From contig NZ_AMRL01000013.1 in NCBI RefSeq assembly GCF_000299935.1, forward strand, positions 1-64,000: DNA of 64,000 nucleotides, in the 5' to 3' direction. Below, in pieces: positions 3,345 to 43,856 of the stretch (its first letter is position 1; the number at the start of each line of letters is the position of its first letter). This stretch comes from Oceanibaculum indicum P24 (GTDB lineage Bacteria; Pseudomonadota; Alphaproteobacteria; Oceanibaculales; Oceanibaculaceae). Under the pieces are notes generated by a model. The model made no database searches. It worked only from the letters and a program-made list of their open reading frames with translations, and was not told where the DNA came from. Made by a program: the position numbers and the translations under genes.

Positions 3345-3353
3345 TGAGGGATG

Positions 3354-3369
3354 TGGCCCGTTTCTTGCT
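3354..3369 (+). promoter_or_regulatory. Sigma-54 promoter of flgK-flgL
   Basis: TGGCCC-GTTTC-TTGCT has the GG-N10-GC spacing and a near-perfect -12 element. It begins ten bases after the flagellin stop and about 60 bases before the flgK start. No CGGCAA-N3-TTGCCG palindrome is visible within a few hundred bases; the nearest is the flagellin enhancer about 1 kb upstream. Confidence 0.78.
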
Positions 3370-3429
3370 TGGATGTCTTTGCGGTAGTTCCTGCCCGGTT
3401 TTGACCGGGGACATTAGGAGAAGTCAGCG

Positions 3430-4935: not shown

Positions 4936-4979
4936 CGCCGGATGGGCTGAATGAGACGGACTGAAAGAGGAAGAGAGCC

Positions 4980-6014: not shown

Positions 6015-6051
6015 GGCCTTTTTCGGCTTTATCGCTATCTGCGCCTTTACG

Positions 6052-6088
6052 CATCGTCCGCTTCGATTTATCGGGCGGACGATGTTTG
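6052..6088 (+). terminator. Intrinsic terminator after flgL
   Basis: Arms CATCGTCCGC (6052-6061) and GCGGACGATG (6075-6084) pair perfectly over ten bases and are followed by TTTGATTT. It closes the flgK-flgL unit. Confidence 0.75.
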
Positions 6089-6130
6089 ATTTAGGAAAGG
6101 TGCGCGCAGGCGGTGAAGTCCCCTCATTCG

Positions 6131-6230
6131 CCATTCCCGCACTTGTTGCGGGAATCCAGGGTTCAGCCTGCTCAGGCGGACATCCAGCAAGCGGAAGCCT
6201 GGACCCCCGGTACAAGACCGGGGGTGACGG
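6131..6230. repeat. REP-like intergenic repeat with two hairpins, copy 1
   Basis: Two perfect nine-base-pair hairpins with five-base loops lie at 6133-6155 (loop CTTGT) and 6203-6225 (loop ACAAG). A second copy of the same layout is at 63771-63870. The two loops are complementary to each other in both copies although their sequence differs. Such units are common between genes in alphaproteobacteria; no coding potential is seen. Confidence 0.8.
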
Positions 6231-6262
6231 TCAGGGTTTTGTCCCCCGTCAGAGCTTGCTAT

Positions 6263-6291
6263 AGCGCCGCCTCCTCAGTGGGGGCGGCGCT
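6263..6291. repeat. Inverted repeat upstream of the FlaG-like gene
   Basis: AGCGCCGCC (6263-6271) and GGCGGCGCT (6283-6291) pair perfectly around an 11-base loop. No T tract follows on the plus strand, so it is a weak terminator candidate. The rest of 6292-6371 shows no clear promoter apart from an AT-rich stretch near 6318-6330. Confidence 0.5.
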
Positions 6292-6371
6292 GCCTGTTGT
6301 GATCTGCGCTCATTCGCTTATATATAAAAAGCGTCCTTTAACAGGAAGCGACGAGAGCAGGAGAGACAGGC

Positions 6372-6941
6372 GTGATCAGCGGCATTGGATCAGGCGAGGC
6401 TTTCGGCGCCGGCACCCAGCCGGTGGCCCGGAACAATGCTGAGCCGCTTCGCACCAATACCGCCCGTATTCCTGCCAATGGAGGCCCGTCAGAGGAACCG
6501 CTCTCCCGGCCGCGTCCCCCGGGGCCGACCGAGGTGGACGGTCCCCAGGTCTGGGGCAATGGCTATCTCAGCCCGGTCTATCGCTTCGACGACAGTACCA
6601 GCACCCTGTTCTTCGAGCAGCGCGCCTTCGTCTCCGGCGACACCACCCGCCAGGTGCCGCTCGAAAGCGCGGTGAAGCTCTACAGCCTGTTCGAGCAGGT
6701 GCGCCAGAGCACCCTGCCGGGGCAGTCCGGCGAGCCTGAGACAGCAGGCCAGGGCGATCCGGCCCCAGTGCCGACAGCATCTGGTCGGGAGACACCTGAG
6801 GCTACGGCCACGGGTCAGACGGAAGCCGCCACTGCAACGGGTGGCACCCCGCAGCCCGCCCCGGCGGAAACGGCACCGATAAGGCAGCCATCCAGCGCTA
6901 CAGCAGGGCCTGTGGGCCAGTTGCTCGACATCGAGGCCTGA
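6372..6941 (+). CDS. FlaG-like flagellar protein of unknown function
   Basis: A 189-residue protein starting at GTG 6372, with AGGAG at the right distance upstream. The only ordered-looking part is residues about 60-105, YRFDDSTSTLFFEQRA and GDTTRQVPLESAVKLY. By eye this resembles the FlaG domain, in which a beta hairpin ends in a motif like TGEVIRQIPSEE. Both flanks are Pro/Thr/Ala-rich and probably disordered. It lies among flagellar genes as a single unit between flgL and the convergent flgN. FlaG proteins influence filament length in some bacteria; the assignment here is a pattern match and not certain. Confidence 0.55.
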   Translation: MISGIGSGEAFGAGTQPVARNNAEPLRTNTARIPANGGPSEEPLSRPRPPGPTEVDGPQVWGNGYLSPVYRFDDSTSTLFFEQRAFVSGDTTRQVPLESAVKLYSLFEQVRQSTLPGQSGEPETAGQGDPAPVPTASGRETPEATATGQTEAATATGGTPQPAPAETAPIRQPSSATAGPVGQLLDIEA

Positions 6942-6976
6942 GCGCGGTCGGACTTTTTCAGCAATCCAAACGATAA

Positions 6977-7007
6977 CGGCCCGGTCCGCGTTCTGCGGTC
7001 CGGGCCG
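6977..7007. terminator. Hairpin between the convergent FlaG-like and flgN genes
   Basis: Arms at 6977-6989 and 6995-7007 pair over 13 bases with one T-T mismatch around a TTCTG-type loop. There is no long T tract on either side, but its position between convergent genes fits a shared terminator. Confidence 0.55.
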
Positions 7008-7054
7008 TGTCTCCTGCCCCTGCTGGCTAACGAGAGGGGCGGGAAGGGCGTGTG

Positions 7055-7540
7055 TCAGATCTCGCGGTTGACGGCGATCGACACCTTGTCGTGCTTGGGC
7101 GTGCTGACGCCGTAGCTGAAATTGCCGGTGGCGGTATAGCCGCCGGTTTCCGCGCGCCTGGTCTGCACGGCGTCCTTGATGACCTTGAAGACGCGCTCGC
7201 CGGCTTCAACGGCGCTGGCGAGTGCCATCATGTTGCGACTGACCAGCGCCTGCAGTGCGTCCATCTTCTCGCGCAGCAGGCTGCGCTGCTCCTCCGGCGC
7301 CTGGTTCACCGGCGCGGGGTTCTGCTGCAGGGCGGTCTGCAGCTTCACATAATCGTTCGACGCCATGGTCTTTTCCGTCTGCAGCGTCGCGATCTCCTTC
7401 AGCAGCCGCTTTTCCAGCAGCTGGGTCTCGCGGCTGAGCACCTCGATCAGACGGTCGATGACCTCGACGAAGCGGTTCAGGTTGACCGGCGGGGGCGGTG
7501 CCTCCTGAGCCAGCGTCATGGCGGTGAATGCGGCGTTCAT
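7055..7540 (-). CDS. flgN: FlgN-like flagellar export chaperone
   Basis: FlgN-type chaperones hold FlgK and FlgL before export. This 161-residue protein is mainly helical with the family pattern of long amphipathic helices (LNRFVEVIDRLIEVLSRETQLLEKR, then EEQRSLLREKMDALQALVSRNMMALASAVEAGERV is the core; about residues 20-120). The C-terminal part (TATGNFSYG..) is polar. It overlaps the flgJ stop by four bases and is the last gene of flgI-flgJ-flgN. The symbol rests on fold-like pattern and position, so confidence is moderate. Confidence 0.7.
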   Translation of the reverse strand: MNAAFTAMTLAQEAPPPPVNLNRFVEVIDRLIEVLSRETQLLEKRLLKEIATLQTEKTMASNDYVKLQTALQQNPAPVNQAPEEQRSLLREKMDALQALVSRNMMALASAVEAGERVFKVIKDAVQTRRAETGGYTATGNFSYGVSTPKHDKVSIAVNREI

Positions 7541-7869
7541 TTGCCTGTCTCCTGTAGTCTCAGCATTTCGGCCTGCACATTGTCGGCGATGCCGAACCCG
7601 CCGCGCCTGGAGATTTCCTTGCCCATCTCGGTGACGAGCAGGGAGCGCCAGATGCCTTCGGACGGGCCGCCGCCGAAGGGGCCGTCGGTCGGCAGCGATT
7701 CGAACATCGGTTTCAGCATTTCCGAGATGAAGACGGCCTCGAATTCCTCCGCCGCCTTGCGGGCCTTGTCGGCGGTCATGCCGGGGCCGGTCGGGATGGT
7801 CGGGCGCCCGCTGGTCGCCTGGCTGGTGGCCAGCGACAGGTCGATCGGGCTGGAGGACGCGGTGCTCAT
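7537..7869 (-). CDS. flgJ: Rod-binding protein FlgJ, N-terminal domain only
   Basis: FlgJ caps the growing rod in the periplasm. This 110-residue protein has only the rod-capping domain: AAEEFEAVFISEMLKPMFES, then GPFGGGPSEGIWRSLLVTEMGKEISRRGGFGIAD. It lacks the C-terminal peptidoglycan-hydrolase domain found in gammaproteobacterial FlgJ, as is usual in alphaproteobacteria, where a separate lytic enzyme makes the hole. It overlaps both flgI upstream and flgN downstream by a few bases, indicating translational coupling. Confidence 0.9.
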   Translation of the reverse strand: MSTASSSPIDLSLATSQATSGRPTIPTGPGMTADKARKAAEEFEAVFISEMLKPMFESLPTDGPFGGGPSEGIWRSLLVTEMGKEISRRGGFGIADNVQAEMLRLQETGK

Positions 7870-9014
7870 CAGATCACCTCGATTTCGGCCTGCAGCGCGC
7901 CGGACGCCTTGATCGCCTGCAGGATGGAGATCATGTCGCGCGGACCGACACCCAGCGCGTTCAGCCCATCGACCAGCTCCTGCAGCGTGACGCCGGAGGG
8001 CATGACGGTCAGCCGGCGGTCGGCCTGCTCGTCCACCTCGATCTGGGTGCGCGGCACGACCACGGTCTGGCCGCCATCGCTGAACGGGTTGGGCTGCGAG
8101 ACCTGCGGCGTCTCGGTGATGCGGATCGTCAGGTTGCCCTGGGCGATGGCGACGGTGCTGATGCGCACATTCTCGCCCATCACGATGACGCCCGACTTCT
8201 CGTCGATCACCACCTTGGCGATATAGTCCGGCGAGACGCGCAGCTGTTCGATATCGGTGATCAGGCCAACCGCGTTGTTGGCGTATTGCTGCGGCAGCGC
8301 CATGCGCACGGTCGCCGGGTCCAGCGGCTGCGCGATCGGCTGGCCGAGGAAGGCGTTGATCGCCTGGGCCACGCGCCGCGAGGTGGTGAAATCCGGGTTG
8401 CGCAGGGAGATCTTCACCGACTCCATCTCGGTCATCTTGAAGTCGATCTCGCGCTCCACGATGGCGCCATTGGCGATCCGGCCTGCGGTCGGCACGCCAC
8501 GGGTGATGGAGGCGGCGGCGCCCTGCGCGGAGAAGCCGGAGGCGGCCACCGGGCCCTGCGCCACGGCATAGACCTCGCCATCGGCGGCGATCAGCGGCGT
8601 GACCAGCAGCGTACCGCCCAGCAGGTTGGAGGCATCGCCGATGGTGGAGATGTTCACGTCGATGCGGGTGCCCTGGCGGGCGAAGGGCGGCAGCGTGGCC
8701 GTGACCATCACGGCGGCGATATTATCCACTTCCAGCCCGTTATCGCGGGCATTCACGCCCAGGCGCTCCAGCATGCCGACCAGGCTTTCGCGGGTGAAGA
8801 TCGACTTGGTCAGATCGTCGCCCGTGCCGTTCAGCCCGACCACGAGGCCGTAGCCGACCAGGATGTTGTCGCGCACGCCCTCGAAGCTGGCGATGTCCTT
8901 GATCCGCGAATTGGCGGCGGCAGGCTGCGCGGCAGCCAGCAGGAACGTGGCCACCACCAGCAGGGGGGCGGCGAGCGCCGTCGAAAACAGGGTCTTCCGG
9001 ATTGATCGCAGCAT
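7869..9014 (-). CDS. flgI: Flagellar P-ring protein FlgI
   Basis: FlgI forms the peptidoglycan bushing around the rod. The 381-residue protein has a Sec signal peptide (hydrophobic stretch at residues about 10-27, AAA-N cleavage region) and the family start of the mature part, SRIKDIASFEGVRDN and LVGYGLVVGLNGTGD. The end GPRDMISILQAIKASGALQAEIEVI is also typical. The ATG at 9014 is preceded by GAGGAAG; a longer frame up to 9182 is not flagellar sequence. A sigma-54 promoter lies at 9064-9079. Confidence 0.95.
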   Translation of the reverse strand: MLRSIRKTLFSTALAAPLLVVATFLLAAAQPAAANSRIKDIASFEGVRDNILVGYGLVVGLNGTGDDLTKSIFTRESLVGMLERLGVNARDNGLEVDNIAAVMVTATLPPFARQGTRIDVNISTIGDASNLLGGTLLVTPLIAADGEVYAVAQGPVAASGFSAQGAAASITRGVPTAGRIANGAIVEREIDFKMTEMESVKISLRNPDFTTSRRVAQAINAFLGQPIAQPLDPATVRMALPQQYANNAVGLITDIEQLRVSPDYIAKVVIDEKSGVIVMGENVRISTVAIAQGNLTIRITETPQVSQPNPFSDGGQTVVVPRTQIEVDEQADRRLTVMPSGVTLQELVDGLNALGVGPRDMISILQAIKASGALQAEIEVI

Positions 9015-9063
9015 GTCGCTTCCTCGTGCGTGCAAGCCTGGCGTAATGTCTCGCCACCTCATA

Positions 9064-9079
9064 TGCGAAAAGCGTGCCA
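9064..9079 (-). promoter_or_regulatory. Sigma-54 promoter of flgI-flgJ-flgN
   Basis: On the minus strand TGGCAC-GCTTT-TCGCA has a perfect -24 element, GG-N10-GC spacing, and one mismatch in the -12 element. Transcription would start near 9052, 38 bases before the flgI ATG. Confidence 0.75.
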
Positions 9080-9207
9080 GCGCTTGGCAGGTGGCGGGCG
9101 GCGGCAGAAGGGCCCGGAATTCCGCCGCTTCCCGCGGATCAGGTCCAGGATCGGGCCGGGCCGGGGGCATGCCGGCGGGCAAGGCGTTCCGGGTCGCGGA
9201 CCCCAGG

Positions 9208-9222
9208 CGGAAAAAATTGCCG
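9208..9222. promoter_or_regulatory. FlbD-type enhancer palindrome between flgI and fliX
   Basis: CGGAAAAAATTGCCG differs from the form CGGCAA-N3-TTGCCG at a single position. It lies about 130 bases upstream of the flgI sigma-54 promoter and about 90 bases upstream of fliX. Confidence 0.6.
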
Positions 9223-9273
9223 ATCCCGCCGATATGCCTTGCGGTACCAGTGTAATTTGTTGATCCGCCGGCT

Positions 9274-9287
9274 TATATGGCCATATA
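9274..9287. promoter_or_regulatory. 14-base palindrome just upstream of fliX
   Basis: TATATGGCCATATA is a perfect palindrome centred 32 bases before the fliX ATG. It could be an operator, or part of an AT-rich promoter region. No known regulator is assigned. Confidence 0.4.
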
Positions 9288-9311
9288 TAGAGGCATTGGG
9301 ACGGAGAGAAA

Positions 9312-9719
9312 ATGAAAGTCGGTTCAACAGGCCCCATTCGGTCCGACGCCGCCCGCCGGTCTGACAAGGCCAAGGGCCGTGGCGCCGAGTTCGCGCGTCA
9401 TCTGAGCGCGACGGAGGAGTCCGGCTCCGCCCAGCCCGTCTCCGGTGTGTCTGGCGTCGATTCCCTGCTGGCCGTCCAGCAGGTGGACGAGCGGCCCGAG
9501 CGCCGCGCGCGCCAGCATGGCGAGGATATGCTGAGCCGGCTGGACGAGATCCGCCACGGCCTGCTGCTGGGTGGAATCCCGCTCGCCCGCCTGGAACAGC
9601 TTTCCGACATGGTGAAGCGGCAGCGCGAGCGCGATCTCGATCCGCGTCTTGCCGGAATCCTGGACGACATCGAGCTGCGGGTGCGCGTCGAGCTGGCCAA
9701 ACTGGGCCGCGACAGCTAG
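9312..9719 (+). CDS. fliX: Flagellar assembly regulator FliX
   Basis: In Caulobacter FliX couples assembly of early flagellar structures to the activity of FlbD, the sigma-54 activator. This 135-residue protein carries the family's C-terminal half: LDEIRHGLLLGGIPLARLEQL, MVKRQRE, and a final DPRLAGILDDIELRVRVELAKLG. The N-terminal part is basic and poorly conserved. GGAGAGAAA precedes the ATG at 9312. It is a single gene, divergent from flgI and sharing its control region. FlbD itself is not in the window. Confidence 0.92.
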   Translation: MKVGSTGPIRSDAARRSDKAKGRGAEFARHLSATEESGSAQPVSGVSGVDSLLAVQQVDERPERRARQHGEDMLSRLDEIRHGLLLGGIPLARLEQLSDMVKRQRERDLDPRLAGILDDIELRVRVELAKLGRDS

Positions 9720-9798
9720 CGTTCCTATATTATTAAATACTGAAATTCATTACTTTATTTCGATTTTTCGCCGGCTTTCCATTTAATAAAACTTACTC

Positions 9799-9827
9799 TT
9801 GTTCAGGGGCAGTGCGATCCCTATACT
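9799..9827 (+). promoter_or_regulatory. Sigma-70-type promoter of dksA
   Basis: TTGTTC (9799-9804), 17-base spacer, TATACT (9822-9827). Predicted start about 9834, giving a leader of about 30 bases. The upstream region 9725-9795 is strongly AT-rich and could act as an UP element. Confidence 0.6.
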
Positions 9828-9864
9828 CCGCGCGCTTTCGGTTCTGCGTAGCGTGGAGTGGAGT

Positions 9865-10287
9865 ATGTCAGCATCGCCTTTGCTGCCCCCCGACTACCGG
9901 CCGTCCGAGGACGAGCCGTTCATGAATCCGATGCAGCGGGAGTATTTCCGCCAGAAGCTGTTGCGATGGCGACAGGAGATTCTGGTGGAAGCGGGGCAGA
10001 CCCTCGACCATCTCAGCCAGGAAAATCTGCAGCAGCCGGACATGGCTGACCGCGCCTCGCTGGAGACCGAGCATGCCATCGAGCTGCGTACCCGGGATCG
10101 CGAGCGCAAGCTGCTCGCCAAGATCGATGCCGCGCTGGAGCGGATCGACGATGACAGCTACGGCTATTGCGAGGAGACGGGCGAGCCGATCAGCCTGCGC
10201 CGGCTGGAGGCACGACCCATCGCCACGCTGAGCCTTGAGGCGCAGGAGCGGCACGAGCGGATGGAACGCACCCACCGCGACGACTGA
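9865..10287 (+). CDS. dksA: DksA-type RNA polymerase-binding regulator with degenerate zinc finger
   Basis: DksA enters the RNA polymerase secondary channel and, with ppGpp, retunes promoters in starvation. The 140-residue protein has the coiled-coil with the tip motif DMADRA (D59 and D62, matching the DxxDxA tip needed for function) and the C-terminal globular part YGYCEETGEPISLRRL. Of the four zinc-binding cysteines only C102 remains; the positions normally held by the second and later cysteines are other residues. Cysteine-poor DksA is known in alphaproteobacteria. The ATG at 9865 follows GGAGTGGAG; an open frame upstream is not conserved-looking. Confidence 0.9.
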   Translation: MSASPLLPPDYRPSEDEPFMNPMQREYFRQKLLRWRQEILVEAGQTLDHLSQENLQQPDMADRASLETEHAIELRTRDRERKLLAKIDAALERIDDDSYGYCEETGEPISLRRLEARPIATLSLEAQERHERMERTHRDD

Positions 10288-10312
10288 TCCCGCCCCCGGA
10301 TCGGACAATTAC

Positions 10313-10340
10313 AAAGGCCGCATCGCAAGGTGCGGCCTTT
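10313..10340 (+). terminator. Terminator after dksA
   Basis: AAAGGCCGCA (10313-10322) and TGCGGCCTTT (10331-10340) form a perfect ten-base-pair hairpin, ending in T and followed by GCTTTGC. It can also work on the minus strand. Confidence 0.78.
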
Positions 10341-10361
10341 GCTTTGCTTGCCCGAAAATAA

Positions 10362-10398
10362 AAAGACCGCCTGGCCCCGGTTTCGGGAGGCGGTCTTT
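10362..10398. terminator. Second, bidirectional terminator between dksA and flgH
   Basis: AAAGACCGCCT (10362-10372) and AGGCGGTCTTT (10388-10398) pair perfectly over 11 bases; A runs on one side and T on the other serve both strands. The remaining 10399-10537 has scattered CTTCTGCC-like words but no gene, and lies just after the flgH stop. Confidence 0.78.
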
Positions 10399-10537
10399 CG
10401 GTTCAGCCTTCTGCCGGCCGTCGCTTGCCCTTTAGATACTTGCCTTCCGGCGGGGCGGGCCAGAACCTTCTGCCCTGGGCATTCTGCTTCCGCTTGCCGC
10501 CTGTCCGGCCTTCTGCCGGCAAAATCTGCTGCCGTCT

Positions 10538-11314
10538 TTAGAACGGCATGATGATGTCCATCACCTGCTGGCCGTAGCGCGGCTGCTGCACATCGGTGAT
10601 GTGGCCGCGGCCGCCATAGGCGATGCGCGCCTCGGCCAGACGGTCATAATCGATGGTGTTGGTCGAGCTGATATCCTCCGGCCGGATGATGCCGCCGACG
10701 ATCAGTTCGCGGACCTCGAAATTCACCCGCACTTCCTGCTTGCCATAGACCACCATATTGCCGTTCGGCAGCTTCTGGGCGACCACGGCGGCGACCCGCA
10801 GATTGATCGCCTCCCGGCGGTTGATGGTGCCGGTGCCGGTGCTGCTGCTGCCGCTTTCCAGGCCCAGCAGATTGCCGGGGTTCACGGCGTCGGGCAGCAC
10901 CTTGCCGAGTTCGGCTTCCAGGCCGAACAGGCCGGTCAGCCCAGCATCCTCGCTGTTGGCGCGGGTGCGCGCGGTGGTGTTCGAGAGCTGCGCGTTATCA
11001 GCGATCTCGATGATGACGGTGATCAGGTCGCCGACCTGGGATGCGCGCTGATCCTTGAAGAAGGCCCGCGAACCCATGCTCCACAGCGAATTCGCCTGGC
11101 GCACCTGCGGCCGCATCTCCGGCATCGGCATGCTGACCGGGGTGTAGTTGCTGGAGTGGGTCGGGTTGTCGATGCCGCTGAGGCCCGGCGCCTTGCCGAC
11201 CTGGCTCAGCCGCTCGCCGGCGCCGCAGGCCGACAGGCTGAGCGCGGCAAGAGCGGTGCAGGCGAGCAGGAGTGCGCGGCTGCGCTTCGGGCTGTGGGGT
11301 TTCGTGGTGGTCAT
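10538..11314 (-). CDS. flgH: Flagellar L-ring protein FlgH
   Basis: FlgH forms the outer-membrane ring. The 258-residue protein begins with a lipoprotein signal ending in LSLSAC (lipidated Cys30). Typical motifs follow: SLWSMGSRAFFKDQRASQVGDLITVII, TGTGTINRREAINLRVAAVV, and GGIIRPEDISSTNTIDY. It is the last gene of flgF-flgG-flgA-flgH, 77 bases after flgA. The order is standard for alphaproteobacteria. Confidence 0.96.
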   Translation of the reverse strand: MTTTKPHSPKRSRALLLACTALAALSLSACGAGERLSQVGKAPGLSGIDNPTHSSNYTPVSMPMPEMRPQVRQANSLWSMGSRAFFKDQRASQVGDLITVIIEIADNAQLSNTTARTRANSEDAGLTGLFGLEAELGKVLPDAVNPGNLLGLESGSSSTGTGTINRREAINLRVAAVVAQKLPNGNMVVYGKQEVRVNFEVRELIVGGIIRPEDISSTNTIDYDRLAEARIAYGGRGHITDVQQPRYGQQVMDIIMPF

Positions 11315-11391
11315 GGCAACTATCCTTCTTCAGGCAAGCTAGGGGCAGTCAAAGGGGCGGTAAGGGCGGCCGCCCGTTACTTTTCGTCTGT

Positions 11392-12456
11392 TCAGTTCAG
11401 GGCCACCTGGCCGCGGGTGACGACCTCGACGAGGTTCGGCCCGACGACCTTGCCCTGGATGATCTTCTTCGAGCCGGTATTGGTGACCTGGATCAGGTCG
11501 CCCTCGGCGCCGTTCTGCATGGCGATGCCGGTGGCGGTCAGCCGCATGTTGGCGGTGGTGGCCACGATGGTGACGCGGTCGCCGCGCGTGGTCAGCAGGT
11601 TCGGCTTCAGGTCGGTGCTGCGCAGCGGGCGGTTCGCGGCCAGCGGGCGGCGGGTGACCGTGCCGATGATGTCTTCTGGCTGGGCGACGATATTGCCGGC
11701 CAGGCTGGCCTGCCGCACCTTCTTCCAGGCGACGTCGCTCTGCTGGATTACCGCACCCGGCAGCACGGCGCGGGCCAGCACCGGCACATCGATCAGCGTA
11801 TAGACGCGGCCCGTGACCTGCACGCTCTGCGCCTCGGGATCGTTCGCCGGGGCGGTGATGGTGGCCTGGAAGCGCTGCGAGCGCTTGTCGTAGCTCAGCT
11901 GCTCGACCCGCATGGTCATCGGCCGGTCGGTCGCGATATGCAGCTGGACGCTGCGGTTGAACAGATCGACGTCGATCTCCTCGAACCGGTCCTGGGTGAT
12001 CAGCGCATCGCGGATCTCGCGCTCGATCTCCTCCGCCGGCACGACCACGCTGGCGCGTTCGATGGCGACCTTGTCCAGCGGGCTGTTCGGCCGCCAGTCG
12101 AGGCCATGCTGCTGCGCCAGGGCATAGAGATGGCTGGCGGTGTAGATACGGCGCTCGCCGGGCTGGGGCGCATGATCGATGATGCTGTTCCGATCGTCGG
12201 AGATGCCGGCGAACAGGTGGCCGAGGCGTACCTCGCGCCCCTGCACCATCGTGACGTTCTGCAGCGCCACCGGCAGCAGGGCGGCAGCCGGCGCCAGCAC
12301 ACGGTCGCGCGTCTGGTATTGCTGCGCCGATGCGGGCAGCGTGGCCAGACCCAGCAGGGGAGCCACAAGCATGGGGGCCAGGACGGCGAGACCCAGGCCG
12401 CGCATCCGAAGCTGCCCAGAAGTGTTCCGGGGGGCGGTCTTATGGTTGGCTCGCAT
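11392..12456 (-). CDS. flgA: Flagellar P-ring assembly chaperone FlgA
   Basis: FlgA helps P-ring formation in the periplasm. The 354-residue protein has a basic N-terminus and signal peptide to about residue 44 (PASAQQ), then an extended region and the C-terminal SAF domain: DVPVLARAVLPGAVIQQSDV, RRPLAANRPLRSTDL, and VVTRGQVALN at the end. At 354 residues it is longer than enteric FlgA (about 220), as is common in this class. It lies between flgG (55 bases away) and flgH. Confidence 0.93.
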   Translation of the reverse strand: MRANHKTAPRNTSGQLRMRGLGLAVLAPMLVAPLLGLATLPASAQQYQTRDRVLAPAAALLPVALQNVTMVQGREVRLGHLFAGISDDRNSIIDHAPQPGERRIYTASHLYALAQQHGLDWRPNSPLDKVAIERASVVVPAEEIEREIRDALITQDRFEEIDVDLFNRSVQLHIATDRPMTMRVEQLSYDKRSQRFQATITAPANDPEAQSVQVTGRVYTLIDVPVLARAVLPGAVIQQSDVAWKKVRQASLAGNIVAQPEDIIGTVTRRPLAANRPLRSTDLKPNLLTTRGDRVTIVATTANMRLTATGIAMQNGAEGDLIQVTNTGSKKIIQGKVVGPNLVEVVTRGQVALN

Positions 12457-12511
12457 GATGTCTGCTCCTTCTTCCGCGTGTGTCGCTTAGCCGCTCGCGC
12501 CTGATCCGGGA

Positions 12512-13297
12512 TCAGCGCAGGCGGGTGACGGTCTGCATCATCTGGTCGGTGGCTTCGATGACCTTGGAGTTCATCTCGTAGGCGCGCTGCGCGGTGATCA
12601 GCGAGGTGATCTCGGTCACCGGGTTCACGTTCGAGGTCTCAAGGTACCCCTGCAGCAGCGTGCCATAGCCCGGCTCGCCCGGATTGCCGGCGATTTCCGC
12701 GCCGGAGGCCGGGGATTCGACCAGCAAATTGTTACCGATGGCCTCAAGGCCGGCCATGTTCGGGAACACCGCCAGATCGATCCGGCCGAGATTCTGCAGT
12801 TCGACCTGGTTGTCCAGCTTCGCCAGAACCTCGCCGCTGGCATTGATGGTAACCGACACGGCGTTCTGCGGCACGGCGATGGCCGGCTGCACCAGGAAGC
12901 CGTCGGCGGTGACGAGCTGGCCTTCCGGGTTCAGCTGGAAGGAACCGTCGCGGGTATAGCCGATCTCGCCATTCGGCAGTTCGATGCGGAACAGCCCTTC
13001 GCCCTGGATGGCGACGTCGAGCTGGTTGTCGGTCAGCATCAGGTTGCCCTGCTCGTTGATCCGGTAGGTGGCCGCAGCACGGACACCGACACCGATCTGC
13101 AGGCCGGAGGGCACGACATTGCCTTCCTGCGCGGACTGGGCGCCGACCCGGCGCAGATCCTGGTAGAGCAGGTCCTGGAATTCCGGCCGCATGCGCTTGA
13201 AGCCGACCGTGCTCATGTTGGCGATGTTGTTGGAGATGACCTCCACATTGATCTGCTGCGCCTGCATGCCGGTGGCGGCAATATTAAGGGATCGCAT
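12512..13297 (-). CDS. flgG: Flagellar distal rod protein FlgG
   Basis: FlgG builds the distal rod. The 261-residue protein matches the family over its full length: MRSLNIAATGMQAQQ, VISNNIANMSTVGFKR, and the C-terminal EITSLITAQRAYEMNSKVIE. Downstream flgA and upstream flgF are on the same strand with short gaps. Length and ends are standard. Confidence 0.96.
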   Translation of the reverse strand: MRSLNIAATGMQAQQINVEVISNNIANMSTVGFKRMRPEFQDLLYQDLRRVGAQSAQEGNVVPSGLQIGVGVRAAATYRINEQGNLMLTDNQLDVAIQGEGLFRIELPNGEIGYTRDGSFQLNPEGQLVTADGFLVQPAIAVPQNAVSVTINASGEVLAKLDNQVELQNLGRIDLAVFPNMAGLEAIGNNLLVESPASGAEIAGNPGEPGYGTLLQGYLETSNVNPVTEITSLITAQRAYEMNSKVIEATDQMMQTVTRLR

Positions 13298-13348
13298 GAT
13301 TTCTACTCCGTATCTGGCTTATGGCCGTTAAGTGCGTGCGGTCAGGTC

Positions 13349-14080
13349 TTAGGCGCCGTTATTCGGCTTGCCGAGCCGGCGGATACCATCGCGCATCCGG
13401 TCATGCTCCTGCTGGATGAGGTTGGAGGTGCGTTCATAGCTGCGGTGAATGTCGATCATCCGCGTGATCTCGCCGACCGCATTCACGTTGGAGCTTTCCA
13501 GCGCGCCCTGCACGACCCGCGAATTCTGCGGCTCAATCGGCTCCTCCAGGGAGACGAACAGGTTGGTGCCGGCGCGCTGCAGCGTCTGCGGGTTGTCGAA
13601 GCCGACGATCTGGATCTGGCTGATCTCGACACCGTCCTGGGTGCGGATGAAGCCGAACTCATCGACCAGCAGCGGCCCCTGATCCATCGGGATCGAGACC
13701 GGGTTGTTGTTGCTGTCGAGCACCGCATAGCCCTCGGTGGTGACAAGCTCGCCATTCTCGTTCGGCTTGAAGCTGCCGGTGCGCGTATAGCGCGGGCCCG
13801 CCGGCGTCTCGACGACGAAGAAGCCATCGCCAGTCACCGTCAGGTCATAATCGTTCGCAGTGGTCTGCAGCGCGCCTTCTGACATGTCGAAGGCAATCGC
13901 CTTGTCGATCACATAGGACAGCTTCTCACCGAAGCGGGGCTGCTCCAGATATTCGGCGAACAGCACGCGCTGCCCCTTGAAGCCGGCCGTGTTCACGTTG
14001 GCGATATTGTTCGCGATCGTGGACATCTCGCGCTGCAATGCGCTCTGACGTGACAAGGCGATGAACGAAGTGGCTTCCAT
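13349..14080 (-). CDS. flgF: Flagellar proximal rod protein FlgF
   Basis: FlgF is one of the proximal rod proteins. The 243-residue protein has the rod-family ends SALQREMSTIANNIANVNTAG and EITRMIDIHRSYERTSNLIQ. The ATG at 14080 gives the standard N-terminus (MEATSFIALSRQ) and is preceded by GAGAGACACG; the frame continues upstream to 14254 but that part contains the promoter and is not rod-like. First gene of the flgFGAH unit, driven by the sigma-54 promoter at 14148-14163. Confidence 0.94.
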   Translation of the reverse strand: MEATSFIALSRQSALQREMSTIANNIANVNTAGFKGQRVLFAEYLEQPRFGEKLSYVIDKAIAFDMSEGALQTTANDYDLTVTGDGFFVVETPAGPRYTRTGSFKPNENGELVTTEGYAVLDSNNNPVSIPMDQGPLLVDEFGFIRTQDGVEISQIQIVGFDNPQTLQRAGTNLFVSLEEPIEPQNSRVVQGALESSNVNAVGEITRMIDIHRSYERTSNLIQQEHDRMRDGIRRLGKPNNGA

Positions 14081-14147
14081 GATCGTGTCTCTCCTGCCTG
14101 GTTCGATGGCCGGTAACGGTCCGGCACCTCGGGCTCGCCAAACCAGA

Positions 14148-14163
14148 TGCAGGAGGTGTGCCA
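14148..14163 (-). promoter_or_regulatory. Sigma-54 promoter of flgF-flgG-flgA-flgH
   Basis: On the minus strand TGGCAC-ACCTC-CTGCA has GG-N10-GC spacing with one mismatch to consensus. Transcription would begin near 14137, about 55 bases before the flgF ATG. Confidence 0.78.
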
Positions 14164-14248
14164 AAACGAAAACGCCAGGAAATCCGCCACTTTTCTGGAG
14201 AGAATCCGGTTCTGGGGACGGCGTGGGCATGTTGCGGCAGGCTTTGCC

Positions 14249-14263
14249 CGGCAAATCTTGCCA
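14249..14263. promoter_or_regulatory. FlbD-type enhancer palindrome between flgF and fliL
   Basis: CGGCAAATCTTGCC is identical over 14 bases to the site upstream of flgB (25904). It lies about 90 bases upstream of the flgF promoter and about 235 bases upstream of the divergent fliL promoter, so one site may serve both. The rest of the 527-base gap 14081-14607 holds the two promoters and no gene that I can support. Confidence 0.75.
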
Positions 14264-14495
14264 AGCCGTATCGCACAGCGTGGCAGGGGGAGGGGTACTC
14301 TTTGCCGGGCGCTGCCGCCGCGGCGGTGTGGGACCACAAGATCACGCGGTCGGCATTTAAAAAACGACAAGGTATGGGGTTACGCGGCAGCCAATCCTTT
14401 CAACACAGACGTGATTCCGCTAAACTGCAAAAAGCGTTATGTATGAAGCCATGCCGGATCGCCGGACACGATGCGGCCCGGCGTATGGCCAGGGA

Positions 14496-14511
14496 AGGCA
14501 CGATTTTTGCT
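14496..14511 (+). promoter_or_regulatory. Sigma-54 promoter of fliL-fliM
   Basis: AGGCAC-GATTT-TTGCT has GG-N10-GC spacing and a perfect -12 element; only the first T of the -24 element is missing. Predicted start about 14523, 85 bases before fliL. Confidence 0.75.
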
Positions 14512-14607
14512 CCATCGGTTTTCAGGCGTCCAATCCGGGCGTCGCACCCAAGGCGCAGGCCGCCCGCTCCGGGCGGCTCCGCAAGAGTGACGGACAGGTA
14601 GAAGAAG

Positions 14608-15126
14608 ATGGCGGCTGACGCGGTCGGCGAGGATTTTGAAGAAGGCGGTGAAGGCCCGCCGAAGAAAAAGTTCAGCGGTAAGAAGCTGATCCTTTTCATC
14701 GTGCTGCCGCTGCTGCTGCTGATCGGCGCGGCCGTCGGCGTCTATTTCTCCGGCCTGCTCGGCTCCGACCCGGCGCCGGTGGATACCGCCCAGGAGGCAC
14801 CGCCGCCGCCGCCGCCGGCGCAGGCCGTGTTCTTCGATCTGCCGGAAATCATCGTGAATCTGAACAGCACCGGCCGGCGCTCCACTTTCCTGAAGATGAA
14901 CATCAGCCTGGAGCTGCAGAACCCGTCCGATATCGCCCGGATCAACGAGGTGATGCCGCGCATCATCGATAATTTCCAGGTCTATCTGCGTGAATTGCGG
15001 ATCGAGGATCTTCAGGGTTCCGCCGGCATGTACCGCCTGCGCGAGGAGCTGCTGCGGCGGGTGAATCTGGCGGTGCGGCCGGCGCGCGTGCGTGACGTGC
15101 TGTTCCGCGAGATGCTGGTGCAGTAG
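14608..15126 (+). CDS. fliL: Flagellar basal body-associated protein FliL
   Basis: FliL is a single-pass inner membrane protein that surrounds the stator and supports torque. The 172-residue protein has a charged cytoplasmic N-terminus, one membrane helix (residues about 31-50), a proline-rich linker (PPPPPP), and a periplasmic domain ending in VRDVLFREMLVQ, the family's usual C-terminal form. AGGTAGAAGA precedes the ATG. fliM follows 32 bases later. Confidence 0.94.
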   Translation: MAADAVGEDFEEGGEGPPKKKFSGKKLILFIVLPLLLLIGAAVGVYFSGLLGSDPAPVDTAQEAPPPPPPAQAVFFDLPEIIVNLNSTGRRSTFLKMNISLELQNPSDIARINEVMPRIIDNFQVYLRELRIEDLQGSAGMYRLREELLRRVNLAVRPARVRDVLFREMLVQ

Positions 15127-15158
15127 CGGATGCGGCGCCGGGACAAGACGGAGGCAAG

Positions 15159-16214
15159 ATGAGCAACGACCAGGATGCCCTGGCTGACGAATGGGCCGCC
15201 GCGGGCGAGGACGACGAGGATATGGCCGCCGCCATGGGCGGCGATGAGGATGAGGCTACAGCCCGTGTCCTGAACCAGGCGGAGATCGATTCGCTTCTCG
15301 GCTTCGACGAGGATGGCGACGGCTCGGGCGACAATTCCGGCATCCACGCCATCGTCAATTCGGCGCTGGTGTCCTATGAACGCCTGCCGATGCTGGAGGT
15401 GGTCTATGATCGCCTTGTCCGCATGATGTCCACCAGCTTGCGCAATTTCACCTCGGACAATGTCGAGGTCTCGCTCGACAACATCAACTCGATCCGCTTC
15501 GGCGATTATCTGAACTCGATCCCGCTGCCCGCCATGCTGGGCGTGTTCAAGGCCGACGAATGGGACAATTTCGGCCTGCTGGTGGTCGATTCGGCGATGA
15601 TCTATTCCATCGTCGACGTGCTGCTGGGCGGCCGGCGCGGCACGGCGGCGATGCGTATCGAGGGCCGGCCTTACACCACCATCGAGCGCAATCTGGTCGA
15701 GCGGCTGATCAACGTCGTGCTGTCCGACCTGTCGGCGGCCTTCGACCCGCTGTCGCCGGTGACCTTCCGCTTCGAGCGTCTGGAGACCAACCCGCGCTTT
15801 GCCACCATTGCCCGCCCGGCCAACGCCGCCATCGTCGCGCGCCTGCGCATCGATATGGAGGATCGCGGCGGACGGCTGGAGCTGCTGCTGCCCTACGCGA
15901 CGCTGGAGCCGGTACGTGAGCTGCTGCTGCAGATGTTCATGGGCGAGAAGTTCGGCCGTGACTCGATCTGGGAAGGCCATCTGGCGACCGAGCTGTGGCA
16001 CACCGATGTCGAGCTGGAAGCGGTGCTGGACGAAGTGCCGGTGCCGCTGGGCGACGTGCTGAACTGGAAGGTCGGCAGCCGCATGTTGCTGAACACCGAG
16101 GCGGATTCGACCATCGATCTGCGCTGCGGCAACGTCACCCTGTTCGGCGGCCGCATGGGCCGCAAGGGAACCGATATCGCCATTCGCATCGAGAAGCGTC
16201 ATCGCAAGATGTAG
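15159..16214 (+). CDS. fliM: Flagellar motor switch protein FliM
   Basis: FliM binds phospho-CheY and transmits the switch signal to the C ring. The 351-residue protein has an acidic N-terminal extension (residues 1-37), then the CheY-binding motif NQAEIDSLLG at about 39-48, a CheC-like middle domain, and a C-terminal SpoA domain (VPLGDVLNWKVGSRMLL, FGGRMGRKGTDIAIRIE). GGAGGCAAG precedes the ATG. FliG and FliN are not in the window. Confidence 0.95.
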   Translation: MSNDQDALADEWAAAGEDDEDMAAAMGGDEDEATARVLNQAEIDSLLGFDEDGDGSGDNSGIHAIVNSALVSYERLPMLEVVYDRLVRMMSTSLRNFTSDNVEVSLDNINSIRFGDYLNSIPLPAMLGVFKADEWDNFGLLVVDSAMIYSIVDVLLGGRRGTAAMRIEGRPYTTIERNLVERLINVVLSDLSAAFDPLSPVTFRFERLETNPRFATIARPANAAIVARLRIDMEDRGGRLELLLPYATLEPVRELLLQMFMGEKFGRDSIWEGHLATELWHTDVELEAVLDEVPVPLGDVLNWKVGSRMLLNTEADSTIDLRCGNVTLFGGRMGRKGTDIAIRIEKRHRKM

Positions 16215-16262
16215 CATGGAGCCGCCGGCACGCCGCCGGCCGCCACGGGAAGGGATGGGCGC

Positions 16263-16784
16263 ATGATGGGCCTGGAAATGTCGCTGCTGCTGGAAACGCT
16301 GGTGGCTGCCTTGCTGGTCGCCACCATCGTCTATGCCGCCATCCTGAACCGCAAGCTGGGCCGGCTGCGCGCCGACCGGGCGGAGCTGGAGGCGCAGATC
16401 GCCCGATTCGTGGAGTGCACGCATCGCGCCGAAGCCAGCATCAAGCATCTGAAGGCGGTTTCCGAAGAGGCCGGCCGGTCGCTGCAGCAGCCCATCGACA
16501 GGGCTATGGCCGTGCGCGATGAGCTGGTGTTCATGATCGAGCGTGGCGACACGCTGTCGGAGAAGCTGTCGGGCCGGATCTCGGCGGCGCGCGAGCCGCG
16601 CGCGGAAGAGACGCCTGCTGCCATGCCCAGGCGACCGCGCCCGGCCGCGCCAGTTCAGGCTGCGCCCGGACAGGAGCGGGGCCAGGACAGGATGGTGGGA
16701 CCGGCGCCCGAGGAGGACGAGGATATGGCCGGCCGTTCCAAGGCGGAGCGCGACCTGCTGCGTGCTCTCCGCGAGGCCCGCTAG
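16263..16784 (+). CDS. DUF6468 family membrane protein, flagellar locus
   Basis: A 173-residue protein with one N-terminal membrane helix (residues about 7-27), a charged helical middle (LGRLRADRAELEAQIARFV, then CTHRAEASIKHLKAVSEEAG), and a Pro/Arg-rich C-terminal tail. It matches what I know of the DUF6468 family, found almost only next to fliM and motE-like genes in alphaproteobacteria. Its role is unknown. GGGAAGGGATGG precedes the ATG. It is within the fliL operon, 48 bases after fliM. Confidence 0.7.
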   Translation: MMGLEMSLLLETLVAALLVATIVYAAILNRKLGRLRADRAELEAQIARFVECTHRAEASIKHLKAVSEEAGRSLQQPIDRAMAVRDELVFMIERGDTLSEKLSGRISAAREPRAEETPAAMPRRPRPAAPVQAAPGQERGQDRMVGPAPEEDEDMAGRSKAERDLLRALREAR

Positions 16785-16847
16785 CAACAACTGCTGAGAT
16801 ATGAAGGGGCGCGTGGCGCCCGCCTGAAAGAACCGAGTGGAATAGTG

Positions 16848-17579
16848 ATGCTGTCGATCCCACGCCTGTTGCCGGTTACGATTCTGGCCGCCCTGCTGCT
16901 GCTGACCGTGAAGCTGGGCGGTATCTGGGACGGTGTCTCCCGCCTGCAGGCCGGGATCGGCACTGCGCCGGTGCGTGCCCAGCAGGCCCAGCAGCCGGCG
17001 CCCGCAAACCAGCAACCGGCGAACCAGCAGCAACCGGCCAATCAGCAGCCCGCAGGTCAGCCTTCCACAAATCAGCAGAACGGGGCCAACCAGGGTGGTA
17101 CGGGCCAGGGTGGGGCTTCGTCGGGCGGCACCGCCGTCGATCCGATCCTGTTCAGCCGGTCGGAAATCGAGCTGCTGCAGGAATTGTCGCGCCGCCGCGA
17201 TGAGCTGGACCAGCGCGAGCAGACGCTGGTGCAGAAGGAGGGGCTGCTGGCAGCCGCCGAGCAGCGTATCGACAAGAAAATTGCCGAGCTGGATGCGATC
17301 CGCTCCGACATCGAGGGGCTGATCAAGAAATATAACGAACAGGAAGAGGCGGAGGTGCAGCGCCTCGTGAAGATCTACGAGGCGATGAAACCCAAGGATG
17401 CGGCCCGCATCTTCGACCAGCTGGACATGAACATCCTCCTCCAGGTCGTGGAGCGCATGGCCGAACGCCGCGTCGCGCCGATCCTCGCCGATATGAGCCC
17501 GAAACGGGCCAATGAGCTGACTGCGGAAATTGCATCGCGTCGCCAGATGCCTGATCTTGGCGCGCAACCGACCCAGTAG
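16848..17579 (+). CDS. MotE-family flagellar protein (MgtE N-terminal-like domain)
   Basis: MotE-type proteins are periplasmic chaperones of the stator/motor. This 243-residue protein has a signal-anchor (residues about 5-22), a Gln/Asn/Pro-rich repetitive stretch (residues about 43-90), a long coiled coil (SRRRDELDQREQTLVQKEG and on), and a C-terminal helical domain with MKPKDAARIFDQLD and MSPKRANELTAEIA, the MgtE-N/MotE signature. An in-frame GTG directly precedes the ATG. It is the last gene of the fliL operon. Confidence 0.8.
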   Translation: MLSIPRLLPVTILAALLLLTVKLGGIWDGVSRLQAGIGTAPVRAQQAQQPAPANQQPANQQQPANQQPAGQPSTNQQNGANQGGTGQGGASSGGTAVDPILFSRSEIELLQELSRRRDELDQREQTLVQKEGLLAAAEQRIDKKIAELDAIRSDIEGLIKKYNEQEEAEVQRLVKIYEAMKPKDAARIFDQLDMNILLQVVERMAERRVAPILADMSPKRANELTAEIASRRQMPDLGAQPTQ

Positions 17580-17646
17580 CGGTAACAGTGGCGGAATTAC
17601 AGCGGAACCGGCGCCGCCTGGCGCTTAAAAAAAGATCGTGATCGTT

Positions 17647-17661
17647 TTAACTCTTGTTTAA
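17647..17661. promoter_or_regulatory. CtrA box upstream of cheY
   Basis: TTAACTCTTGTTTAA is an exact match to the full CtrA recognition form TTAA-N7-TTAA, followed directly by another TTAA. It lies about 70 bases before the cheY-like gene at 17732. CtrA activates motility and chemotaxis genes in many alphaproteobacteria; the CckA-like kinase that feeds this pathway is at 29568. Confidence 0.75.
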
Positions 17662-17731
17662 TTAACGGCGACTAGAGTGACCCCCGTCGCCCGTTAACCA
17701 CACAAACCTACGCTTTAAACCGAGGTGATGA

Positions 17732-18118
17732 ATGAGCGTCGATATGAACATGGATATCCTCATCGTCGATGATTATCGCACGATGCTCCGGATCATCCGC
17801 AATCTGCTGAAACAGATCGGCTTCGATAATGTCGATGAAGCCACCGATGGCAGCATGGCGCTCAAGAAAATGCGCGAGAAGAGCTATGGGCTCGTCATTT
17901 CCGACTGGAACATGGAGCCGATGACCGGCCTGCAGCTCCTGAAGGAAGTGCGCGCGGACGCCAAGCTGAAACATACGCCCTTCATCATGGTGACGGCGGA
18001 AAGCAAGACCGAGAACGTGATCGCCGCCAAGCAGGCCGGCGTGAACAATTACATTGTGAAGCCGTTCAACGCCGCCACGCTGAAGATGAAGCTGACGGCT
18101 GTCATCGGGAACTTCTGA
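17732..18118 (+). CDS. cheY: CheY-type single-domain response regulator
   Basis: A 128-residue receiver domain that, by family, binds FliM when phosphorylated. Key residues are all present: acidic pair D13/D14, phospho-acceptor D58 (ISDWNMEPMTG), T88 and K110 (IVKPFN). AGGTGATGA precedes the ATG. It is adjacent to cheZ, and both are preceded by a CtrA box. The wording VISDWNMEPM is typical of CheY proteins paired with CheZ. Confidence 0.9.
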   Translation: MSVDMNMDILIVDDYRTMLRIIRNLLKQIGFDNVDEATDGSMALKKMREKSYGLVISDWNMEPMTGLQLLKEVRADAKLKHTPFIMVTAESKTENVIAAKQAGVNNYIVKPFNAATLKMKLTAVIGNF

Positions 18119-18132
18119 CAGAGGGTTCTGCC

Positions 18133-18810
18133 ATGGCCGTTCCGTCGAAATTTTCGGCAAAGCAGCCTGCCGGCGAGGCCGCTGCCGATTCGTCCGCCGG
18201 TCCGGCCGTGACCACGGAAGAGGTGGTCTCCGTTGTCGAGCAGATGCTGTCCAACCTGCGCGGCGACCTGTCGCCGGGTGCCATGCAGCTCTATGGCGAG
18301 CTGGAGGATCTGGCGCGCTTCATCCGTGATGCCCGCAAGGACCTGGCGGAAATCCGCCCGGAAGACATCCGCGACCATCATATCCCGAGTGCCACCGACG
18401 AGCTGGATGCGGTGATCGGCGCCACCGAGGAGGCGACGGGCCGTATTCTGGATGCCTGCGAGGTGTTCTCCGAAGTCTCCGGCAAGCTGTCGGAAGAGGA
18501 TTCGGAGCGCACCATGAATGCGGTCACCGAAATCTACGAGGCCTGCAACTTCCAGGACATTACCGGCCAGCGCATTACCAAGGTGGTCGGCACGCTGAAG
18601 CATATCGAGGACAAGATCGAACAGCTCCTCCAGGCTTTCGGCGCGGGGGTCAATAACGCGAAGGACGGCGCTGCCAAGAAGCCGCCGGCCGCGGAAAAGC
18701 CCAAGGGCAAGGATGGCCGGCCGGATGCCGATCTGCTGAATGGCCCGCAATTGCCCGGCAATGCGAATTCGCAGGAAGATATCGACGCAATTCTCGCGAG
18801 TTTCGACTAG
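18133..18810 (+). CDS. cheZ: Protein phosphatase CheZ
   Basis: CheZ removes phosphate from CheY-P. The 225-residue helical protein has the active-site region ACNFQDITGQRITKVV (Q141 to Q146; one Gln acts in hydrolysis) and a C-terminal DIDAILASFD peptide like the tethering helix that binds CheY. A disordered Lys/Pro-rich linker joins them. It begins 14 bases after cheY. Confidence 0.9.
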   Translation: MAVPSKFSAKQPAGEAAADSSAGPAVTTEEVVSVVEQMLSNLRGDLSPGAMQLYGELEDLARFIRDARKDLAEIRPEDIRDHHIPSATDELDAVIGATEEATGRILDACEVFSEVSGKLSEEDSERTMNAVTEIYEACNFQDITGQRITKVVGTLKHIEDKIEQLLQAFGAGVNNAKDGAAKKPPAAEKPKGKDGRPDADLLNGPQLPGNANSQEDIDAILASFD

Positions 18811-18846
18811 ACTGTCGCCAGTTAGGTTAACGGGCGGCCGGAGTCG

Positions 18847-19545
18847 ATGCAGGGCGAAGACGGGCAGAACGAAACGAAGAATCCCGCAGCGGCCAGTGCC
18901 CAGGCTCTGTTGAGCCTGTATCTCCTCCTGCTGGCCTTCTTCATCCTGCTGCAATCCATCTCCACCTTCGAGGACCAGCGCGCCGGCGAGGTGATGGAAG
19001 GGGTAAACCGCAGTTTCCCCTCCTTCCTGAAGTCCGGCACGGTCGGCGGCGACCGCATGACCAGCGGCGGCCTTGCCGAGGGTGCCGAAGCCTCGGCCCG
19101 GCTGGGTCCGCTTTTCGAAAGCCAGTTCACCCTGTCGCCGACGGCGCGCATGACGCCGGCCGACAGCTTCCGCGCGACCGTGCCGCTGGCGGAACTGTTC
19201 GAGGGGCCGGGTGAGGGGCTGAATCCGCAAATCGCCCCCTTCCTTGATCAGCTTGCCGATATTCTGCAGCGCCCGCCTGCCGGTGCACGGATCGAGCTTG
19301 AACTGCTGATTCCCGAAAAACCGGCTGCCATCGGCGCCAGCGGAAATGCCGAGACACCAACCATGCGGCGGCTTGCCAATCTGGTGCAGGCGCTCGTTCA
19401 GGCCGGCGCGCCGGCCAGCGTGCTGTCCATCGGCTATGGGCTTGGCAACGGAAACGGCAATGGCGATGGCCAGAAGATGAGCTTCCTGTTCCATGTCCGG
19501 AGCAGCGCCAGCACTGCCGTCACCTTCGGTCCGGAGAGCCGCTGA
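18847..19545 (+). CDS. MotB-like protein lacking the membrane aspartate
   Basis: A 232-residue protein with one membrane helix at residues about 20-38 (LLSLYLLLLAFFILLQ) and a periplasmic part. The helix aligns with MotB and with the next gene, LLLAFFI in both, but the position of the proton-binding Asp is Ser23. The C-terminal part (residues about 120-232) looks like a worn OmpA-type domain without the usual peptidoglycan-binding signature. It ends with an ATGA overlap with the next gene. It may be a partner subunit of that protein. No motA is in the window. Confidence 0.6.
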   Translation: MQGEDGQNETKNPAAASAQALLSLYLLLLAFFILLQSISTFEDQRAGEVMEGVNRSFPSFLKSGTVGGDRMTSGGLAEGAEASARLGPLFESQFTLSPTARMTPADSFRATVPLAELFEGPGEGLNPQIAPFLDQLADILQRPPAGARIELELLIPEKPAAIGASGNAETPTMRRLANLVQALVQAGAPASVLSIGYGLGNGNGNGDGQKMSFLFHVRSSASTAVTFGPESR

Positions 19546-20342
19546 TGCCCTCCGATCCGCTTTTTGGCCTGAACAGCGGCCCGCATGGTGGTGCAGGCAA
19601 AAACCCCAACGCACCAGATTCACCGCCGCAGCACAGCCCGTTCCATATCCTGCCGAAGGTCGGCGGGCCGTTCTGGCTGCTGACCTTTCTCGACGTCATC
19701 AGCCTGCTGCTGGCCTTCTTCATCATGCTGTTTGCCATGTCGAACCCCAGGACAGCAGACTGGGAGGAGCTGTCGGCCACCCTGGCCGACCGGCTGGCAC
19801 CGAATGTGGAGACCGTGAAGCCGGCGCCGCCGACCGCGCTGACCATCGACGAAGACAAGACCGTACCGGGCCTGAACCTCGATTATCTGGTCTCGCTGCT
19901 GCGCGGCCATCTCGACAGCGATCCGCTGTTGGCACGAACCGTGCTTCACCGTTTTCCGGACCGGTTGATCCTCTCGATGCCGTCCGACCTGCTGTTCGCG
20001 CTGAACAGTGCCGCCCTCAACGACCAGGCCCGCCGGGCCCTGTTCGAGCTGGGCGGCCTGCTCGGCAACCTCAGCAACCGGACGGATGTGTATGGTCATA
20101 CCGATCCCGCGCCGATCCGCTCCGGTCCCTATCGCAGCAACTGGGAGCTTTCGTTGGCGCGTGCACAGTCCGTAGCGACGGCGCTGCTGGAATCGGGTTA
20201 TGATAAGCCTATGATCGTTCAAGGATTCGCCGATACGCGCTTCGTTTTTCTCGCCCGTGATATCCTCTCGCCCCGGCGTGAGGCGCTGGCGCGCCGCGTC
20301 GATATCGTGCTCTACCCGTCGCAGGCCGCGATCCTGCCATGA
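19545..20342 (+). CDS. MotB-like OmpA-domain protein
   Basis: A 265-residue protein with one membrane helix (residues about 43-63) carrying Asp50 in TFLDVISLLLAFF, the position of the ion-binding Asp of MotB. The C-terminal OmpA/MotB domain contains YGHTDPAPIRSGPYRSNWELSLARAQSV, the peptidoglycan-binding signature. The translational start overlaps the previous gene's stop, and its own stop overlaps the start of the TPR protein, so the three are likely co-translated. It could be the flagellar stator subunit, with motA elsewhere, or part of a separate ion-driven complex. Confidence 0.72.
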   Translation: MPSDPLFGLNSGPHGGAGKNPNAPDSPPQHSPFHILPKVGGPFWLLTFLDVISLLLAFFIMLFAMSNPRTADWEELSATLADRLAPNVETVKPAPPTALTIDEDKTVPGLNLDYLVSLLRGHLDSDPLLARTVLHRFPDRLILSMPSDLLFALNSAALNDQARRALFELGGLLGNLSNRTDVYGHTDPAPIRSGPYRSNWELSLARAQSVATALLESGYDKPMIVQGFADTRFVFLARDILSPRREALARRVDIVLYPSQAAILP

Positions 20343-42419: not shown

Positions 42420-42734
42420 GGGCGGGGCTCGTCAAAGGGGTAGGTCAAAACCAAGATGGCTGGCCTGCGCCGGACCTGCAAGGCCAGCCGCTGCATGCAC
42501 CTGCAATTGCACTCCGGACTATCCCGATATAGGGTTTGCGCTACGGCATAAAGCGGTCCGGATAACCGGCCGATTTTGGGGGCGTGCGCAATGAATCCTT
42601 CCGACATGACGGTTTTCTGACAATGCTGCGACGTCCTTTCATCATCGGCGTGATCGGCGCCATCGTGGTGCTGGTCGCGCTGGCCCTGAATTTCCTGGTG
42701 ACGTCGGAAGATGCGCCGCAGCAGGCCGCGCCCG

Positions 42735-42809
42735 CCACCTTGCCATCCGGCGCCAGCCGGTCCACGCGGAGCCTATAAGTACCGGCCGCCACCTCGCCCT
42801 CGGGCTGCA
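42735..42809. repeat. 75-bp inverted copy of the LysM gene's own sequence
   Basis: Every base of 42735-42809 equals the reverse complement of 43552-43626. Read on the minus strand it encodes the same peptide (QPEGEVAAGTYRLRVD and on) that the gene encodes on the plus strand 0.8 kb downstream. Flanking bases do not match. Confidence 0.95.
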
Positions 42810-43551
42810 CGCACGGCGCCGTCCACCGCCGCGACACCCTCCACGGCCCCGCAGAACCCCGCCGTGCCGGACCAGACGCCGGCGCCGCGTGCGCCCAGCT
42901 TCGATGTGGTGCGGGTGAACCCGAAGGGCGATACGGTGATCGCCGGGCGCGCTACGCCGAATTCCAAGGTGATCGTGAAGGATGGCGACCGGGTGATCGG
43001 CGAGATCCAGGCCGATCAGCGTGGCGAATGGGTGCTGCTGCCGAAGGAGCCGCTGCCGCCGGGCAACCGGCAGTTGACGCTGGAGTCGGAACTGCCCGAC
43101 GGCAGCCGCCTGCAGTCGCAGGATGTGGTGGTGCTGGCGGTGCCGGAACCGCAGAAGGATATCGCCGGTCAGCCGAGCGCCGCGCCGCAGACTCCGCTGG
43201 CCATGGTCGTGCCGCGTGAGGGCAGTGGCCCGTCCACGGTGCTGCAGGCCCCCGCCGCGCCGCAGCAGCCGGCGCAGCAGCCGACGGCTCCAGCGACGGC
43301 AGCCCAACCGGTGGCCCAGCCAGCGGATCAGGCCAAGCCGGCCGCTCCGGCGCCGACAGGCCCCTCCGTCGTCAGCCTGCCGGAAAACGGCAAGAAGACC
43401 GATATGCCGGTCAGCGTCGATGTGGTGGATTACGATGCCAAGGGGGCCGTGATCCTGAGCGGCCGGACCGAACCGAACGGGCAGGTGCGGGTCTATCTCG
43501 ACGACAAGCCGCTGGGCGACGCACGGGCGGACGACAAGGGCAACTGGCGCC

Positions 43552-43626
43552 TGCAGCCCGAGGGCGAGGTGGCGGCCGGTACTTATAGGCTCCGCGTGGA
43601 CCGGCTGGCGCCGGATGGCAAGGTGG
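43552..43626. repeat. Source copy of the 75-bp inverted repeat
   Basis: Lies in frame in the LysM protein gene as part of its second beta domain; its reverse complement is inserted at 42735-42809. Confidence 0.95.
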
Positions 43627-43856
43627 TGGCGCGGGTGGAACTGCCCTTCGCCCGATCGGAGCCGCTGTCGGGCCTCCTGGAAGGCCGGGTGGTGGTCATC
43701 CAGCCGGGCAACAATCTGTGGCGCATCGCCCGGCGCACCTATGGCGATGGCATGGCCTTCACGCTGATCTATGGCGCCAACCGCGACCAGATCCGCGATC
43801 CCGACCTGATCTATCCGGGCCAGGTCTTCGTGCTGCCGCAGGTGAATTAGAGAACT

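Follow-up and report, generated by a model that had tools for sequence, protein, structure and literature searches.

A 75-nt inverted copy interrupts a conserved Ig-like and LysM domain gene in an Oceanibaculum indicum P24 contig: gap-filling artifact or template switch?

Introduction

In a contig of the alphaproteobacterium Oceanibaculum indicum P24, a gene whose product is a membrane-anchored protein carrying Ig-like and LysM domains is broken by a short segment that repeats, in inverted orientation, sequence from further downstream in the same gene. Does this segment record a mutation of the strain, or was it introduced when the draft genome was put together? An earlier note on this DNA attributed it to template switching during replication or to a chimera formed during amplification or assembly, and considered it very recent. 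We analyzed the locus within the window (the whole stretch of DNA studied, 64,000 nucleotides), in three same-genus genomes obtained by a genus search (G001 to G003, one of which, an LPXN contig, corresponds to O. pacificum), and in a sample of 2.08 Mb, or ~53% of the assembly, in which repeats were sought within 20-kb stretches.

Results and discussion

An exact inverted copy splits the gene

The segment at 42735-42809 is the reverse complement of 43552-43626 in 75 of 75 bases, exactly as the earlier note had claimed, and similarity stops sharply at either side. The number of such pairs expected by chance in 64 kb is ~1e-33, and a chance origin of the match is excluded. The donor lies downstream of the insert at a distance of 0.74-0.89 kb, with 742 bp between the two perfect arms. 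The features of the locus are summarized in Table 1.

Table 1. Features of the interrupted gene, in window coordinates.
Feature	Position	Strand	Description
5' part of the broken gene	42623..42778	+	N-terminal membrane anchor and start of the Pro/Ala linker; ends at the stop of the insert
Inserted inverted copy of 43552-43626	42735..42809	-	75 nt; in-frame TAA at 42776-42778
3' part of the same gene	42810..43850	+	remaining linker, two Ig-like domains (Big_6/Big_13), C-terminal LysM domain
GC-rich flank adjoining the right junction	42810..42909		0.79 GC, 99.6th percentile of the genome sample
Source arm, original copy	43552..43626	+	own frame reads (RL)QPEGEVAAGTYRLRVDRLAPDGKVV; part of the second Ig-like domain; conserved in G001

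The open reading frame that starts with the ATG at 42623 encodes a short membrane anchor and runs for 51 codons before it meets the TAA within the insert; the downstream frame is open from 42702 to its end at 43850. The insert adds this stop and shifts the frame, as the note had also described. Besides the insert, the gene carries no further lesion, and comparison with the nearest relative indicates purifying selection (dN 0.090, dS 0.610, dN/dS ~0.15).

The insert is derived and probably replaced part of the linker

None of the three same-genus genomes carries the insert, and each has the gene as an unbroken frame; the downstream arm lines up collinearly with these relatives and codes for a conserved domain segment. 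Judged from this comparison, 43552-43626 is the original and the inverted copy upstream is derived. The proposal that the insert was gained, with the downstream arm as its template, thereby withstood the very check of close relatives that had been suggested along with it.

The description of the event as a clean 76-bp insertion fared less well. Its arithmetic is correct: the 1228 nt from 42623 to 43850 become 1152 nt, or 384 codons including the stop, once the 76 nt at 42734-42809 are removed. However, the frame restored in this way need not equal the ancestral one. More specifically, the linker measures 37 residues without the insert, compared with 45-47 in the three relatives, and is thus 8-10 residues shorter, so that ~24-30 bp of ancestral sequence have seemingly been lost as well. 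The event was probably a replacement rather than a clean insertion.

The flanks of the insert are still collinear with the relative. At the left junction, 42734 (G) and 42735-42736 (CC) align with the flank of the nearest relative, which leaves the breakpoint ambiguous by a few bases; a microhomology of ~2-5 nt is possible at this junction.

Two perfect inverted arms of this length could in principle allow homologous inversion, and one could envisage a functional, selected repeat, either a phase-variation switch that inverts the intervening 742 bp or a regulatory structure. The repeat is absent in all relatives (n = 3), though, and because a single coding frame contains both arms, inversion would merely scramble the gene; on these two points, we reject the phase switch. 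Furthermore, no adjacent recombinase gene is seen in the list of open reading frames, and we regard a selected repeat of any such kind as very improbable.

The insert lies where the assembly tends to break

Contig ends in this assembly are enriched in GC (0.686 in the terminal 100 bp vs 0.655, p ~8e-5), with 22 of 59 ends exceeding the 90th GC percentile of the background. The insert site, with its extremely GC-rich right flank, matches these places at which the assembly tends to break through GC-rich drop-out. Several contig ends overlap another end by only ~16-21 bases, and N is absent from every sampled contig with readable bases, which together suggest a short-word assembly of short reads in which joins within contigs would have been closed. 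In G000, the ends C27L/C10R, C53L/C20R, C21L/C56L, and C54L/C9R have overlaps or common starts of no more than 18-21 bases, which hints at the assembler's word size. A literature search found no publication on the method by which this genome was sequenced. Among early Illumina runs, 75 bases was a standard read length.

We consider it moderately likely that the insert is an assembly or gap-filling artifact. Coverage of the very GC-rich Pro/Ala linker would have failed when early short-read data were assembled. A single 75-base read from 0.8 kb further down the gene, or a chimeric fragment to the same effect, would then have been placed in the gap in the wrong orientation, at a cost of ~24-30 bases of true linker. 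The gene of the living strain would then probably be intact, like that of the relatives. We infer that the reads had a length of 75 bases and that a gap existed and was wrongly filled; several features point in this direction: the copy measures exactly 75 bases with sharp loss of similarity on both sides, its right flank and the contig ends are GC-rich, and the draft appears to be a short-word assembly with closed joins. In addition, all three relatives have an intact gene, and the gene evolves under purifying selection and is otherwise undamaged; both the low dN/dS and the lack of other damage would be expected if the living strain had it unbroken. No single one of these arguments is decisive.

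Gap-closing misassembly is known from short-read drafts (PMC9575681), and the locus resembles such cases in its presumably wrong local sequence, sharp borders, GC-rich and hard-to-sequence setting, and lack of N runs. It differs in that only one case was found in 53% of the assembly. Indeed, the isolation of the insert argues against a gap-filling error: no second local inverted copy longer than 32 bp occurs in the 2.08 Mb, the next longest being 32 bp, and 82 gene-like orthologues checked against G001 yielded no convincing frame break, so that the assembly otherwise appears clean. Comparison with G001 gave 18 frame-break candidates, most of which have low GC3, and most are probably spurious long open reading frames. 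The sole high-GC3 candidate, at 51.2-53.0 kb of the window, was rejected, as it consists of two neighboring genes in opposite orientation with no lesion. A probe of the insert junction had no match in viral contigs. Also speaking against a gap-filling error, both junctions are clean with flanks collinear with the relative, and gap fillers normally need overlaps, whereas the left junction shares only the few bases given above.

A different technical origin would be a chimera formed during amplification or library preparation, since whole-genome amplification and sonication artifacts are known to yield inverted joins (PMC6218980; PMC10908179). We give this origin scarcely any weight: an insert with two junctions requires two joins, and one would expect such chimeras at other places in the genome as well, whereas the 2.08 Mb hold no further instance. 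If the insert is indeed an artifact, a conserved gene has been wrongly made a pseudogene in the draft, and the case illustrates how an inverted insert of read length can pass for template switching.

A genuine mutation would be long-range for its class

Alternatively, the insert may be a genuine recent mutation, an explanation that is possible but that we hold to be less than probable. In a two-jump, four-point template switch, synthesis during replication or repair would have taken 75 bases from the opposite strand, at a site 0.74-0.89 kb away, before resuming on its first template; in short-patch illegitimate recombination, a short single-stranded piece of the downstream region would have annealed at microhomologies and then been integrated. 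Either process would have replaced linker sequence and destroyed the frame. Several observations are consistent with a real event, namely the perfect templated copy with clean junctions and collinear flanks on both sides, its derived state relative to the three relatives, and its isolation within the assembly. Furthermore, the G001 alignment suggests a microhomology of at least 2 nt (CC, 42735-42736) at the left junction, and the GC-rich sequence could stall polymerases. Short-patch double illegitimate recombination has been described in Acinetobacter, and the locus would be similar to it in that a short ectopic segment would have replaced the target at microhomologies.

Template switches in apes have templated lengths of up to 128 nt with a median of 12 nt, and 65% of events bring a net gain in length (PMC7954356). 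The insert shares with these four-point, short-range events the inverted templated segment, the collinear flanks, and a net gain accompanied by some loss. Its 75 nt, however, are far above the median, long yet within range, and the distance to the donor is judged unusual for this class, beyond the usual local range. Template-switch mutagenesis is also established in E. coli, where opposite-strand templating at quasipalindromes likewise results in a perfect inverted repeat (PMC7202029), but those events act on an existing imperfect inverted repeat, and no close one is visible at this locus. More specifically, a scan for exact repeats at the gene loci of the relatives revealed no pre-existing inverted repeat joining the two sites and none of at least 22 bp; the only one of at least 15 bp at the G001 locus measures 16 bp and does not connect them. 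Inverted repeats within 5 kb reached at most 19 bp in 400 kb of control sequence from the nearest relative.

A real event would moreover have broken a gene under purifying selection, and the read-like exact length and the GC context suit an artifact better. In its full form, as a real and very recent two-jump switch or short-patch event with an unusually long copy, a distant donor, no detectable quasipalindrome, and an envelope protein knocked out, the reading is tentative and, in our view, somewhat less probable than not. If real, the event would belong to a type of mutation already described, with a longer range than is usual for it, and be a clean natural case of long-range inverted templating in a bacterium, seldom caught before decay. 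The origin proposed in the earlier note therefore stands insofar as the insert is derived, templated, and frame-disrupting; a biological mutation is not established, and of the two options offered in the note we place an artifact first. The insert is either very recent or an artifact.

Other repeats and insertions in the assembly

The sample holds one other long local repeat, a perfect 77-bp direct repeat in L188 (6459-6535 and 12287-12363, contig C16 of G000; copies 5.8 kb apart), which was considered as a read-length error and rejected. A tRNA-Lys gene (12315-12390) overlaps one of the copies, so the repeat is probably a pair of att sites that bounds an integrated element.

In L038 (contig C1 of G000), ~150 bp at ~667-813 are missing at the matching place in G001, and a 147-bp stretch elsewhere in G001 is 88% identical to them; this segment looks like a member of a family of short repeats interspersed in genomes of the genus. 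Two insertions relative to G001 lie in well-conserved surroundings, one of ~235 bp at ~11672-11905 of L038, with weak partial matches elsewhere in G001, and one of ~415 bp at ~4390-4807 of L034. L074 (contig C20 of G000, 1-20000) holds several inverted repeats of 21-30 bp and direct repeats of 39-40 bp within 20 kb, and is among the most repeat-rich stretches of the sample.
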